64,000 bases of DNA, taken from positions 310,001 to 374,000 of the forward strand of contig NZ_CP101456.1 in assembly GCF_024362485.1 (NCBI RefSeq), written 5' to 3'. A program made the translations under genes and the position numbers. Shown one piece after another: positions 2,456 to 8,333 of this stretch (position 1 is the first letter of the stretch; each line of letters begins with the position of its first letter). The notes beneath the pieces are model-generated. The model had not been told where the DNA came from. It did no database searches and worked only from the letters and a program-made list of their open reading frames with translations. Origin of the DNA: Natronobeatus ordinarius (GTDB lineage Archaea > Halobacteriota > Halobacteria > Halobacteriales > Natrialbaceae).

Positions 2456-2497
2456 ATCTTTTTCTACTACTATTACCTTATTCTATTCTATTAAGGA

Positions 2498-2532
2498 TTA
2501 AATATTTGTTGATGTAACACGTATTGTTACAT
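2498..2532 (+). promoter_or_regulatory. Promoter with operator for the 41-codon zinc-finger gene
   Basis: An AT-rich TATA-like segment (ATTAAATATT, about 34 bp before the ATG) is followed by the inverted repeat ATGTAAC (2512-2518) / GTTACAT (2526-2532) with a 7-base spacer. The repeat sits between the box and the start codon, an operator position. Confidence 0.45.
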
Positions 2533-2536
2533 ATAG

Positions 2537-2662
2537 ATGCGAGACAATCGTGACAAAGTCAATATTGACGGAGTGCCAGCATCGGCCATCGAACACATCG
2601 AGACATGGGACATTCCGGAGTGCGAGTGCGGCGATTTCGAAAACTGCGATTTCTGTCGGTAG
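2537..2662 (+). CDS. 41-residue zinc-finger microprotein
   Basis: A 41-codon ORF ending at 2660-2662. The last third carries CEC at 29-31 and CDFC at 37-40, a compact four-cysteine zinc site. It has its own TATA box and a palindromic operator, and it lies next to the origin-like region. Small zinc-finger proteins with two Cys pairs are known as regulators in haloarchaea; assignment here rests on the motif and promoter. Confidence 0.55.
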   Translation: MRDNRDKVNIDGVPASAIEHIETWDIPECECGDFENCDFCR

Positions 2663-2674
2663 CAAAATGCGGGT

Positions 2675-2738
2675 TTTTGGTAGCAAAATCAATTATCCAC
2701 GCTCTCTATGTGTGTGGATAGATTTCTGCGGCATGAAG
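2675..2738 (+). repeat. Left arm of 64-bp inverted repeat
   Basis: It matches the reverse complement of 3099-3162 at 59 of 64 positions by my reading. The mismatches cluster at the inner end. It includes one TATCCACACA iteron on the minus strand. Confidence 0.8.
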
Positions 2739-3098
2739 AAGGAGGGGCCACTACTCTCCAAAAACTAAATCAGCGATAGAGAGCTTCTAACCCACAGTTC
2801 TGTTCTGGCGGAGTTCGTTCCCTATCATTTTCACTTGCTTCTCCTTCCACACTATCCACACAACTTACCTTACAATAATAATATTAATACCAATTTGGTA
2901 GTAATAGTAGTAGTAGTAGTGTAGTTGTGTGGATAGAATGATGGTGATGCAGAGTGACGATGGCTGATGAAGCTTGATGAGAGTGCTGTGGATGAAAGCA
3001 GGAAGCCAACGCAATAACGCCTGAAAGTCGCTTTTAGTGGCGTTTTGACTCACTGCCCAGTAATCCTTAATTGGTTGTTTTTGGTTACCCCTCCCTCT

Positions 3099-3162
3099 CT
3101 TCGTGGCGCAGAATCCTATCCACACACATAGAGAGCGTGGATAACTGATTTTGCTACCAAAA
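3099..3162 (-). repeat. Right arm of 64-bp inverted repeat
   Basis: Reverse-complement partner of 2675-2738 with five mismatches. It lies about 60 bp upstream of the candidate initiator gene, so binding there could also control that gene. Confidence 0.8.
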
Positions 3163-3225
3163 TACAGATTTTTGCTTCCAATCGAGGATATACCTATATA
3201 CTCCCCCACTGTTAATTAGTTTGAG

Positions 3226-4464
3226 ATGACATTACAGAATCTCGACAAAGAACTGGCAGCGAAGGAGAATGGTAGCAAAAACAGCAAAAATCTGCGACTT
3301 CGAGAAGAATATGTCGAGTGGATAGAGCAAACCGCCCAGGAGAGGTTTGGCTCGTCGTACAAACAGGCCCGGTTGGTCGAGCACGTTATCGACTTTTACC
3401 GCAAATATCACGACGACATGGGGTCAATCGAAGGAGAACTCCACGAGATTAAGACGATGCTCGAAGAGATGCAGGAGACTGGGGTCGCCGTCTCTAACGA
3501 TTCTAACGCCGACGCCGACGACGAACCCACGCCTGCAGGCAATGAGTCGGACGATGAGACTGTTGACGAGGCATCTGATGCAGACGAGAATGATGACCTC
3601 TCCCCTGCAGAGAAGCTGGAGAAGATGGCTCATAACGGCGAGTCAATCGACCCAAGGGAGCACGACCTATCGGTCGCCAACGGAGCACGGGGGGTTGACC
3701 GTACTGCTATCCTGATTGCCGCAATGCGGCACGAGTCGACCCAAGATGAGTGGTCCAAGGAAGATATCGAATCGTTAGCATCAAGAGAGATGAATTATTC
3801 TGGCTCTGGAGCTAATGACCGAGCCAACGAAGTTATTAATCATATTGATGCCTCCCCGCTCCAGAAGCTCGAAGACACGTGGCTGCCAAATCGTGTGGAC
3901 GAGGATATCCGGGGGACGAGGATGAGGGAATTCCGAAAAACAAACAGTGAGGCAGTCTACCGCCGAGAAATCGGTAAATCTCTCGCTGATTATATCGGCT
4001 CGCACGACCTCGACACAGATGTTTATTTTTCCACGAATGGGGCAATGGCACAAGGAATGCTCGATGCCTACAAAACCATAATGCGGGCAATCCACGTTAA
4101 TCCTCGAAGTGAGCATCACAAGACGAGTGCTAAGCTCGCATTGGATGCGTTCGTGGACATCATCGAGCAGGACGGCCTCGACGCCGTCACGCCACTCGGT
4201 GTGGGTGGGACACTCGCTGACGAAATTACGAAAATACGTGTGCAGATGGGCATCGAAGATGTCCCGCTTGACGACCACGACCTCGATACGACTGAGGGCA
4301 TCAAAGCCTACGTCAACACGCATAATCTCAGAGTGTCGACTAAAGCACAAGACCAACTCGCCGACCTCGACGACGCAACTGAAGTCATCTCGACTCTCGT
4401 CGACGATTACAGTGACGCACCAGTTATTACGGCGAGCCATGTGGACGAGGCTCTTAAAAACTAA
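3226..4464 (+). CDS. Candidate replication initiator / DNA-binding protein
   Basis: A 412-residue protein. Residues about 20-65 (lysine-rich, then LRLREEYVEWIEQTAQERFG) look like a small helical DNA-binding segment, followed by a predicted coiled coil (about 68-85), a long acidic low-complexity linker (90-140) and a C-terminal helical half of unknown fold. No rolling-circle HUH motif, Walker A or polymerase motif is visible, so it is not a classical Rep. It is called a candidate initiator because the origin-like inverted repeats lie directly upstream. A TATA box (CTATATA, near 3198) gives a leaderless start. Partitioning or transcription control are alternatives. Confidence 0.5.
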   Translation: MTLQNLDKELAAKENGSKNSKNLRLREEYVEWIEQTAQERFGSSYKQARLVEHVIDFYRKYHDDMGSIEGELHEIKTMLEEMQETGVAVSNDSNADADDEPTPAGNESDDETVDEASDADENDDLSPAEKLEKMAHNGESIDPREHDLSVANGARGVDRTAILIAAMRHESTQDEWSKEDIESLASREMNYSGSGANDRANEVINHIDASPLQKLEDTWLPNRVDEDIRGTRMREFRKTNSEAVYRREIGKSLADYIGSHDLDTDVYFSTNGAMAQGMLDAYKTIMRAIHVNPRSEHHKTSAKLALDAFVDIIEQDGLDAVTPLGVGGTLADEITKIRVQMGIEDVPLDDHDLDTTEGIKAYVNTHNLRVSTKAQDQLADLDDATEVISTLVDDYSDAPVITASHVDEALKN

Positions 4465-5110: not shown

Positions 5111-6103
5111 TCAGATATTGTCGAGATAGCCTCTCCGTTGCTCCATTTTCTCCCGCTCATCCCGGCGGTCGTAGTGCTTGTCCAGCACGTCGGTTGAGAC
5201 GTTTGCCCGGTCAGAAACGACGGTCTCTGGCATATCGTTTCGCAGAAAGTGTGTGATGGAACCACGCCTGAATGCGTGCGCAGCTACGCTGCTGGGGCAT
5301 TCGTAAGCATAGTTATCGCTCCGTTCAACGCTCCCCCGGCATTCGTCTAACTCCTGCTCATGTGGACACTCGCCACTGAACCAACAGGGTCTCGTCAGTC
5401 GATAGCACCATTTTCGCACTGTATTTCGGGCTATCCTCCCGTGTTTCGTGGTCAGCAGTGGGGCTCGCCCGTGTTCATCCTCGATGTCAACTCGCTTTTC
5501 CTCGATATAGTCGTCGAGGATTCGGCATGTTTCCTCACTTATGGCGACCATCCGCTCCCCTTCTCCTTGGTTCTTGAGCGGTGTCTCGGTCTCTGGACGG
5601 TGTTCAAGGCTTAGATACTGTTCCTCGGGGTGGTAGTCGTCGAGGTCGAGACCTCGCACAGCCCCGGTTCTTGCTCCAGTCCGCCAGAGCAAGAGAGTCA
5701 ATGCGTGGTGCATGCTCGCATAGTCGAATCGGTCCAAGCGTTCGAGGATTGCTTGTGCGACGTCCGCTTCAACCTCGTCGTCTCGGACGTTCTCTCCCTT
5801 TCTCAACGTTGGTGAGTCAGCCACGTCGACGAGGTCGTCATCGACGTAGTCGAGACGGCTCATATACTCCAAAAATCCCCGTAGGGTGTCCACGTGGGAC
5901 TTGATTGTGGGTTTCGATAGGTTTTGGTCTCTCAATTCAGTTTTATACTCGTGGATATCCTGCTTCGTCAACTCTTCAACGCCCCGGTCGCCCCACCAAC
6001 TCTCAAATTTCGAGAGCCGGTATTGGTAGGATTGGACGGTTTGGTGTGCGCAGTCGCTCTCTCGGGCGTCGAGGTAAATTGTGATGGCTTTGTTTGGTTG
6101 CAT
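5111..6103 (-). CDS. Tyrosine recombinase / integrase
   Basis: A 330-residue XerC/D-type integrase. The N-terminal SAM-like arm-binding domain (about 5-90) contains TVQSYQYRLSKFESWW. Catalytic residues visible are Arg145 (RTGARTG), His276-x-x-Arg279 (HAFR) and the nucleophile Tyr311 (DKHY). Between the two catalytic blocks is an insertion with C240, C246, C255 and C269 that could bind zinc. It starts about 160 bp from the tRNA-tail-like repeats, the usual int-att proximity of site-specific elements in archaea. It should integrate and excise the element that extends left of the window. Confidence 0.9.
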   Translation of the reverse strand: MQPNKAITIYLDARESDCAHQTVQSYQYRLSKFESWWGDRGVEELTKQDIHEYKTELRDQNLSKPTIKSHVDTLRGFLEYMSRLDYVDDDLVDVADSPTLRKGENVRDDEVEADVAQAILERLDRFDYASMHHALTLLLWRTGARTGAVRGLDLDDYHPEEQYLSLEHRPETETPLKNQGEGERMVAISEETCRILDDYIEEKRVDIEDEHGRAPLLTTKHGRIARNTVRKWCYRLTRPCWFSGECPHEQELDECRGSVERSDNYAYECPSSVAAHAFRRGSITHFLRNDMPETVVSDRANVSTDVLDKHYDRRDEREKMEQRRGYLDNI

Positions 6104-6227: not shown

Positions 6228-6288
6228 CTGAGGTCCTGAAATCTTTGATTTCAGCAACCTCAGACGTGGTTCGAATCCCATCGTGCCC
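6228..6288 (+). repeat. tRNA-tail-like module 1, candidate attachment site
   Basis: A two-tier hairpin (CTGAGGT 6228-6234 with ACCTCAG 6257-6263; CTGAAATC with GATTTCAG inside) is followed 2 nt later by a 23-bp sequence (6266-6288, GTGGTTCGAA...CGTGCCC) resembling the T-loop and acceptor 3' strand of a tRNA. One G is missing from the T-stem, so it is not a functional tRNA. It lies next to the integrase and, unlike modules 2 and 3, lacks a left inverted arm, as if cut there. Confidence 0.6.
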
Positions 6289-6330
6289 GTGATTCTGCGA
6301 CGAACGGACGTGAGGAGCGAATCACGGATC

Positions 6331-6405
6331 GCGATGGGTTCGAATCAGACCGAGGTTCTGCGCGACGCGCAGGTTCTCGGGCGTGGTTCGAATCCCATCG
6401 TGCCC
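6331..6405 (+). repeat. tRNA-tail-like module 2
   Basis: The same 23-bp tail (6383-6405, identical) is preceded 2 nt upstream by an unrelated hairpin (CCGAG 6350-6354 / CTCGG 6376-6380 with CTGCGC / GCGCAG inside). An arm at 6331-6345 (CGCGATGGGTTCGAA) is nearly complementary to the tail, so the module can fold into a long stem. Confidence 0.6.
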
Positions 6406-6445
6406 TGATTCTGCGAGGAGCGGACGCGACGAGCGAACAGCAAAC

Positions 6446-6530
6446 CGCGATGGATTCGAAGGAGACGAGTCGCAGCGTCCGAACGAAGTGAGGACGACCG
6501 TCTCGGTGTGGTTCGAATCCCATCGTGCCC
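6446..6530 (+). repeat. tRNA-tail-like module 3
   Basis: Third identical 23-bp tail (6508-6530), preceded 3 nt upstream by a third hairpin (GAGAC 6462-6466 / GTCTC 6500-6504; CGTCC / GGACG inside). The left arm CGCGATGGATTCGAA (6446-6460) again pairs with the tail with a one-base bulge. Confidence 0.6.
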
Positions 6531-6695: not shown

Positions 6696-8333
6696 TCACG
6701 AAAACGCCATATCTAAAGCACCTTTCGCAGTATCAACGTCAAACAGGTCGGAGCCATAAAACGTCGATAGGGGAAGTTCTCTCCCATCTTTGTCGTGGTT
6801 TTCCAACCAGTACTCGGCCAATCGAACGAAGTCAACTGACCGAATCAGCCGAATATCGATCCCACCGACCAGTTTCTCGAGTTGATTCGCATTGGTCAGG
6901 GCAGTCTCGGTGAAATCTGGAGCGATAATGACGAACCACTTGACCTGATGTTGCTGGTTTTTCGTATCGATGTAATTTTTGATCGTACTTTGCGTATTGG
7001 CTCCGAGTTTGAACTTGCCAGAGCGACGTTTATTATCCCAGAGGAGCCATTCTCCGTCCTGTTCTATCTCGCCATCGGCGACGCTCCCACTTGCTTGCTG
7101 CCCCAAGAGATTCGTTCCGTCGAGATTGAAGACTTCGCGGAAGATCTCTGCCGTAGCCTCTTCGAAGAGCACCTCGAGTTTCTTCGATTGGTCGGCCTCG
7201 TCGACGGTTTCCTGTAATTGAGGTGGAATGAGCTGGATGTTTCCATCTGAAATGTCCTCGAAGCAGTTGAGATACAGCTCCGCATCGACTTCGTCTTCGA
7301 CTAGATCAGTCTGGGACTGCTCGAAGTACTCGATCGTCTGCTGGATCATCTCACCAGTTCGACGTTTGTGGGCGTCGAGACCGTACTGATCGACGATCTC
7401 TTTGAGTTCGTTCTTAGTGAGCATCGACTCGAGGAGTTCACTCGGGTATACGCCTGCATTGACGAGGCTCTCCCGTCGAAGGTCGTTTCGCCCCTTGGTG
7501 GCAGAAGTGACGCCGAAGTGTGCCCGAGCGTCGACGAGTCTGGATTGGTCATCGAAGTAATCCAGCGTCTCCAGCATCGTCAGGAAGCTCTCCTCGGACA
7601 TTTCGTAGTACAGCCATTCACGGATGAAGTCGACGTACTCTTCGGGGATTCCCACAACGTCACCGTGTTTGGGATCGACGACTTCGTAGACGATTGCCTG
7701 TTCTTGCAGCGACCAGAGCCCCTTCTCGATCGTGTCAATAGCGTGTTCGGGTTTTTCCGACCGAGAGACCTTCGGGAAGCGGTCGATTGCCGCCAGTCGT
7801 TTGAAGAAGTCCATCCACGTGTAGTAGTTATGTTTCTGTGACTGGTCCTCGTTGTGGAGTTCAAAGTAGCTGTAAACCATATGCAACTCCGAATCGTCAA
7901 CGTCGGAGCCGTAATCAACGGCAGCTTTCGCTAAGTGGAGTAGGTCGTCAGAGAAATCTTCTTCAACGTACTCATCGACGAGCCGACGTTGCCACGTCTG
8001 GACGCTCTCGAGTAGAGCCGTCTTGTCCATTTTATAACCACGCTGCTGGATCAATGTGCGAAGCAGGCCGTATCGGATAACGAGTGCCTGGTACGGTGAG
8101 TCGTTAATCGAACCCAGTCGTGGCGGCTCGAAATCGTTGAGTTCCAAGGCAAGGCGTTCCTCGTCGGCGAGTGCCGGTGCATACGTTTCGAGGTATTTCT
8201 CTCGGTCCTCGAATCCCTCGTGTTTGAACGACTCCGGGTCGAAGGCCTCTGTTTTGACTTTCGTATCATCCTTCAAGAATCGTTTTCGTTCGTGACTTTC
8301 CCATTCTTCGTCAATTAAATCCTTAATTTTCAT
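6696..8333 (-). CDS. Orphan FokI-like nuclease
   Basis: A 545-residue protein whose C-terminal part (about 385-510) reads like the FokI cleavage domain: a helix plus GTNLLGQ, then ADGE (Asp420), LLWDNKRRSGKFKL (Asp433, Lys435), a helix (STIKNYIDTK) and a strand (KWFVIIAPDF). These line up with FokI PDG, VDTKAYSGGYNL and FLFVSGHF, i.e. the PD...D-x-K catalytic set. Residues 1-380 are helical, acidic and unrecognised, presumably recognition or regulatory. No methyltransferase or other restriction partner is adjacent. It lies just right of the tRNA-tail modules, a place for accessory cargo, and its codon use is less GC-biased than the core genes. Probable defence or restriction nuclease; substrate unknown. 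Confidence 0.65.
   Translation of the reverse strand: MKIKDLIDEEWESHERKRFLKDDTKVKTEAFDPESFKHEGFEDREKYLETYAPALADEERLALELNDFEPPRLGSINDSPYQALVIRYGLLRTLIQQRGYKMDKTALLESVQTWQRRLVDEYVEEDFSDDLLHLAKAAVDYGSDVDDSELHMVYSYFELHNEDQSQKHNYYTWMDFFKRLAAIDRFPKVSRSEKPEHAIDTIEKGLWSLQEQAIVYEVVDPKHGDVVGIPEEYVDFIREWLYYEMSEESFLTMLETLDYFDDQSRLVDARAHFGVTSATKGRNDLRRESLVNAGVYPSELLESMLTKNELKEIVDQYGLDAHKRRTGEMIQQTIEYFEQSQTDLVEDEVDAELYLNCFEDISDGNIQLIPPQLQETVDEADQSKKLEVLFEEATAEIFREVFNLDGTNLLGQQASGSVADGEIEQDGEWLLWDNKRRSGKFKLGANTQSTIKNYIDTKNQQHQVKWFVIIAPDFTETALTNANQLEKLVGGIDIRLIRSVDFVRLAEYWLENHDKDGRELPLSTFYGSDLFDVDTAKGALDMAFS

Follow-up and report, generated by a model that had tools for sequence, protein, structure and literature searches.

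A candidate replication origin with mirrored iterons, and its possible initiator, in a pleolipovirus-like provirus of Natronobeatus ordinarius

Introduction

How does a haloarchaeal provirus replicate when no known replication gene is found in it? The question is raised by a locus near the start of a 64,000-nucleotide stretch of Natronobeatus ordinarius (G000:C1:310001-374000, here called the window), which lies inside an integrated element. A first-pass annotation of this DNA had noted a long inverted repeat with iterons beside the gene of a 412-residue protein, and suggested a replication module unlike the classical haloarchaeal types. On the basis of sequence comparisons, we propose that positions 2658-3280 are probably the replication origin of the provirus, and that the 412-residue protein, encoded at 3226-4464 on the forward strand, is its cognate initiator, belonging to a new family. 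The proposal is built on the provirus context, on unique inverted iterons that surround a palindromic, AT-rich core, on the conserved gene beside them, and on the absence of an SNJ2-type Rep and origin (ori).

The repeat region

The candidate initiator gene is preceded by 770 bp of non-coding DNA (2456-3225), and the neighbouring genes are in tandem, without a divergent promoter. The best ungapped inverted repeat in this interval has arms of 65 nt with five mismatches (2675-2739 and 3098-3162), and scores 50; none of 30 dinucleotide shuffles exceeded 16. The repeat reported earlier is therefore real and its five mismatches stand, but its length is 65 rather than 64 bp, and one further degenerate stretch extends the outer arms, found by inverted-repeat search, to 82 nt (2658-2739 and 3098-3179; 71/82 = 87% identity).

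Two families of ten-nucleotide iterons, counted as exact matches, are found here. Iteron A, TATCCACACA, occurs exactly four times in the window, where 0.01 copies are expected; all four are in the intergenic region, and they alternate in orientation along it: 2711-2720 (-), 2853-2862 (+), 2926-2935 (-) and 3117-3126 (+). Together with the related boxes TTATCCAC at 2693 (+) and 3137 (-), this makes six boxes. The four inverted copies had been recognised in the first-pass annotation, which overlooked a second family: iteron B, GGTAGCAAAA, likewise has exactly four copies in the window (0.01 expected), at 2658-2667 (+), 2679-2688 (+), 3149-3158 (-) and 3271-3280 (+). The last of these is within the 5' end of the 412-residue protein gene, and pairs with the copy at 3149 around the presumed promoter, which suggests that this pair serves in autoregulation too. 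The left outer arm thus contains two copies of GGTAGCAAAA, one of TTATCCAC and one of TATCCACACA in reverse orientation.

Between the arms is an 85-nt AT-rich palindrome (2852-2936), bounded by CTATCCACACAACT and AGTTGTGTGGATAG, which is a candidate unwinding element. The AT-rich core described earlier reaches 78% AT in 40 bp, and is itself this palindrome; folded as a DNA strand it has z = -6.6. It includes a TAG-repeat tract (approximately 2898-2925) with 8 TAG per 60 nt, a density reached in 0 of 500 shuffles.

No exact copy of TATCCACACA, GGTAGCAAAA or TTATCCAC was found elsewhere in the 20.3-kb element, and sites for a global regulator were rejected for this reason. No second significant copy of the repeat region was found in the host genome; a miniature inverted-repeat transposable element, or the end of a transposon or insertion sequence, is ruled out because the region is single copy.

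The 412-residue protein

The 412-residue protein has no match in Pfam, PHROG or NCBIfam, in agreement with the earlier remark that it lacks known replication motifs. Neither it nor its relatives match HUH, DUF7845 or Rep_trans, and PDB profile searches with it returned nothing credible. It is predicted to consist of a ribbon-helix-helix (RHH)-like N-terminus, an acidic linker and helical domains, with a C-terminus that is possibly AAA+-lid-like. The RHH sequence pattern is present at the N-terminus of all six family members; the member from one relative (L010) matches RHH_1 with an E-value of 0.007, below the Pfam cut-off, and there is a weak PHROG match to an Arc-like repressor (E 0.24). An N-terminal RHH domain is therefore plausible. 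For the C-terminal 60-70 residues (4243-4461), Foldseek ranks AAA+ lid domains (RFC, RuvB) first, at a non-significant E-value of about 1, and this segment is absent from the relatives.

Relatives of the protein and their iterons

Profile searches of about 390 genomes from the class identified family carriers in 6. The family is rare and undescribed. Common to its members are an N-terminus of RHH-like character, a linker of low complexity and, in the centre, a helical domain. Three members are in pleolipovirus-like proviruses (that of the window, L009 and L010) and three are in other integrated elements. Of the latter, L011 is close to a serine recombinase gene, L012 (Halomicroarcula sp. SYNS111) is accompanied by other genes, and L028 has an integrase 51% identical to that of the window; no homologue of the pleolipovirus ATPase was found in the sequence examined around these three. 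A structural or virion gene was rejected because homologues also occur in elements without detected pleolipovirus genes. Such a spread over elements of differing gene content is unexpected for a structural gene, and a replication or maintenance module fits better; none of the homologues has an assigned function, and the earlier reading is not contradicted by homologues of purely structural role. The distribution is as expected if the family is an exchangeable module.

Other searches returned nothing further. No relatives were found in phage and plasmid searches, in a first scan of genome contigs, or in IMG/VR viral contigs using the window, A1, L009, L010 and L028 proteins, these last scans relying on short exact peptide patterns. 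The ATPase profile had no match in viral contigs. A match in genome G031 (L013) proved spurious, being methionyl-tRNA synthetase, and one in G130 is weak and contains a stop.

Four of the relatives (L009, L010, L011 and L028) each have a pair of iterons in inverted orientation, 452-484 bp apart. The pair is centred close to the start codon of the gene (L010, -0.5 bp; L028, -11.5; L011, -5.5; L009, +10), and the downstream iteron falls in the linker-coding stretch, at residues ~70-85. The AT-richest 100 bp (66-92% AT) is between the paired iterons, just upstream of the gene. The iteron sequences themselves differ, being GTGTGTGTG, AGAATAAAAAGAAAATCC and CACCCCTGAACGAAAAAA, the last of which is also an exact direct repeat. 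GTAGCAAAA is also found ahead of the genes of L010 and L012, with which the window has CACACA-type boxes in common as well. Of the relatives, only L009 has a TAG tract. Depending on the locus, 0-10% of shuffled sequences reach the observed pair score. Three of the four loci are centred on the start codon by their best pair, and L009 by a second copy; if the loci are independent, the joint chance is of the order of a few in a thousand, which is of moderate significance and no more than suggestive. In the window, by contrast, both arms are upstream of the gene, around a core away from the gene start.

Replication genes looked for in the element

Pfam searches of the main open reading frames (ORFs) of the element found no known Rep, Orc1/Cdc6, MCM, primase, polymerase or rolling-circle Rep. 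In the virus SNJ2 the ori motif has been defined experimentally, and the Rep (RepSNJ2, Rep-Arvir) is a DUF7845 protein (PMC13107129). No DUF7845 protein (PF25227) is encoded within the element, and there is no match to it anywhere in genomes G394, G364 and G374. The best site in the element for the SNJ2 ori hairpin motif GTGTGGCTAAGGCCA has 4 mismatches; the positive control, HHPV3, has 0. An SNJ2-type ori and Rep was thus rejected as absent, with a working control. It is because known replication genes were not found in the element that the 412-residue protein is the best initiator candidate. The earlier suggestion of an unfamiliar replication module holds as regards architecture, with gene, iterons and core kept in relatives and neither a DUF7845 Rep nor an SNJ2 ori present; the roles of origin and initiator are what we infer.

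Two DUF7845 genes occur elsewhere in the host genome (G000:C1:1438312-1439286 and 633212-634186), and probably belong to other SNJ2-type elements.

The host element is a pleolipovirus-like provirus

The element is about 20.3 kb long, and extends between tRNA-Arg(TCT) and repeated tRNA 3' ends. Its GC content is 52%, against approximately 65-70% in most of the flanking DNA. The intact tRNA-Arg(TCT) gene is at G000:C1:295883-295958, and its 3' end recurs at window positions 6270, 6387 and 6512, the first copy (6270-6288) being the right attachment site. Beside it, on the reverse strand, is a tyrosine integrase gene (5111-6103; Pfam Phage_integrase), whose product has 41% identity to the SNJ2 integrase over its full length (E 2e-79). 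A 372-residue NTPase matches the ATPases of HHPV3, HHPV4 and His2 (best E 3e-25, Harhisp1), and more weakly those of HRPV3 and SNJ2. The gene order is a putative small membrane protein of 69 residues, a spike-like protein of 669 residues, proteins of 290, 183 and 303 residues, and the NTPase. This parallels SNJ2 gp12-gp17, with the 290-residue ORF after the spike as an extra and the 183- and 303-residue ORFs as the two membrane-associated ORFs of a pleolipovirus-like block. Signal and C-terminal transmembrane segments were recognised by eye in the spike-like protein.

Within this block, sequence similarity to known pleolipoviruses is limited to the NTPase. The spike-like protein matched no known phage record, which points to a divergent pleolipovirus-like lineage. 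Two relatives in other genera have an ATPase with about 59% identity, the spike being 43% identical in one and the integrase 47% in another. Taken together, attachment sites, tRNA-Arg, integrase and ATPase bear out the integrated element of the first-pass annotation, and support its identification as an integrated provirus of pleolipovirus-like (membrane-vesicle-type) character. The comparison with pleolipoviruses recommended there gives matches for ATPase and integrase; the SNJ2 replication module is absent.

Proposed function and alternatives

The proposed mechanism begins with integrase-mediated excision of the provirus. The 412-residue protein would then bind both iteron families, plausibly through its N-terminal RHH domain, and the mirrored sites would keep it on either side of the core. 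The AT-rich, TAG-containing core would melt, and the host helicase and polymerase would be recruited. Since the protein has no ATPase motif, the host would have to provide unwinding and helicase loading. Iteron B at 3149 and 3271, around the gene start, would give the protein a means of autorepression. Box binding, core melting, recruitment of host factors and autorepression are all steps that we infer from this arrangement.

Several points weigh against the proposal. The protein has neither a catalytic nor an ATPase motif. Its predicted models are poor: the full-length model has a mean predicted local distance difference test (pLDDT) score of 41, and the N-terminal fragment, modelled from a single sequence, gives helices only and is uninformative as to an RHH fold. 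Among the relatives, 9 of 99 control ORFs in the same loci also have a pair score of at least 10 centred within 12 bp; L009 fits only through the second, direct copy, its best pair being centred at -34; and L012 has no in-gene iteron partner. The search for known Rep domains in the relatives' elements, which found none in the ORFs tested, covered part of their small ORFs. Finally, the cumulative GC-skew has its minimum near position 2.0 kb and its maximum about 8.5 kb away from there, which agrees with an origin at the locus, but this signal is confounded by gene orientation.

The same sites could be read as an autoregulatory operator, with the 412-residue protein a repressor or switch that loops the DNA around its own promoter and has no role at an origin. 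RHH proteins are often repressors, the sites in L009, L010, L011 and L028 are symmetric about the start codon in the classical geometry of a repression loop, and in the window the copies of GGTAGCAAAA at 3149 and 3271 bracket the presumed promoter. However, the large arms and palindromic core of the window are 50-570 bp upstream, and with the arms around a core that is not at the gene start an origin is favoured over a mere repression loop. The neighbours being in tandem, no divergent promoter accounts for the 770 bp of non-coding DNA, and the element would be left without a recognisable replication gene. We consider an operator with no origin function unlikely; operator and origin roles may coexist.

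A rolling-circle origin, with the central 85-nt hairpin as nick site and either a small unrecognised element protein or the 412-residue protein as nickase, would make good use of the strong hairpin and of the fact that pleolipoviruses otherwise use Reps of that type (PMC13107129, PMC10599561). It is improbable given the lack of HUH, DUF7845 or Rep_trans matches in the protein family, and because the SNJ2 origin is a compact hairpin located downstream of rep (PMC13107129), which the long mirrored iteron arms do not resemble. A little less probable again is a partition site or centromere to which an RHH-type adaptor binds, another protein driving replication. Its precedent is in RHH proteins of the ParR type, which bind iterons adjacent to the gene that encodes them; no ParA/ParM-like ATPase was found among the element ORFs scanned, where the sole P-loop ATPase is the pleolipovirus one, and no alternative Rep was found.

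Comparison with known replication systems

The SNJ2/Betapleolipovirus module resembles the window in belonging to a temperate pleolipovirus-type element with tRNA integration and an SNJ2-type integrase, and in having one element-specific gene adjoining a structured non-coding site. It differs in its DUF7845 protein and ori motif, in having a short hairpin downstream of the gene rather than mirrored iteron arms and an AT-rich core upstream of it, and in orientation: gene and integrase are convergent in the window, and co-directed across the attachment site in SNJ2. Archaeal oriC, with Orc1/Cdc6 and origin recognition boxes (ORBs), also has inverted recognition boxes around an unwinding region beside the initiator gene, and boxes and initiator vary together (PMC4010727), but the 412-residue protein has no Pfam match and is not an AAA+ Orc1/Cdc6, and the box sequences differ. 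Iteron plasmids (the bacterial RepE/TrfA/RepA class) share multiple short iterons, an AT-rich region, an adjacent gene and likely autoregulation; their iterons are mainly tandem rather than mirrored, and their proteins are unrelated by profile search. The hallmark of the iteron and ORB types is thus present: a candidate DNA-binding protein is encoded next to repeated boxes that flank an AT-rich core.

Bacterial oriC is characterised by the DnaA box TTATCCACA and the DnaA-trio 3'-GAT-5' (PMC10201434). The window boxes CTATCCACA and TTATCCACG are one base off the DnaA-box consensus and adjoin the TAG tract (2898-2935), but the relatives have other iterons, and beyond the window the tract is found in L009 only. 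To our knowledge archaea have no DnaA. A DnaA-type origin was rejected on this ground and because the relatives use other boxes, and the likeness is probably convergence or accident.

Pleolipoviruses without a recognisable replication protein exist, namely Epsilonpleolipovirus and HFPV-1; by published description these resemble the window element in having a pleolipovirus gene set, a large spike and no known replication gene (PMC10599561). The Betapleolipovirus Rep was itself characterised only in 2026 (PMC13107129). The locus is a concrete candidate for an origin and initiator in an element with a pleolipovirus ATPase, a virion-like gene order and an SNJ2-type integrase, and a different replication module. 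More tentatively, and with rather less than even confidence, it may represent a new class of archaeal initiator, neither AAA+ nor nuclease and probably of RHH type, which recognises mirrored iterons spaced by about 450 bp, with an unwinding core between them and some of the sites in its own coding sequence. Such an initiator would move between archaeal elements, pleolipovirus-like and other, and would supply the missing Rep of some pleolipoviruses. If true, replication modules would be swapped between archaeal mobile elements, and a new type of vector backbone, compatible with the replicons already available for haloarchaea, might be derived from the locus.

Other features of the element

Upstream of the repeats is the gene of an 88-residue winged-helix protein (1601-1867, +), with a similarly placed homologue in L009. 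An IS66-type transposase gene is present within the provirus (G000:C1:298814-300271). A 215-residue ORF (141-788, -) has, by eye, a PD-(D/E)XK nuclease-like pattern and no Pfam match, and similar-looking ORFs occur in L009 (6262-6792) and L010 (5388-5996). Three tRNA-Arg 3'-end fragments follow one another at the element's right end (6270-6530), which suggests repeated integration or remnants of earlier elements. Just beyond, a 545-residue ORF (6696-8333, -) without a family match, and with only a FokI cleavage-like similarity (E 0.017), is possibly a defence nuclease.
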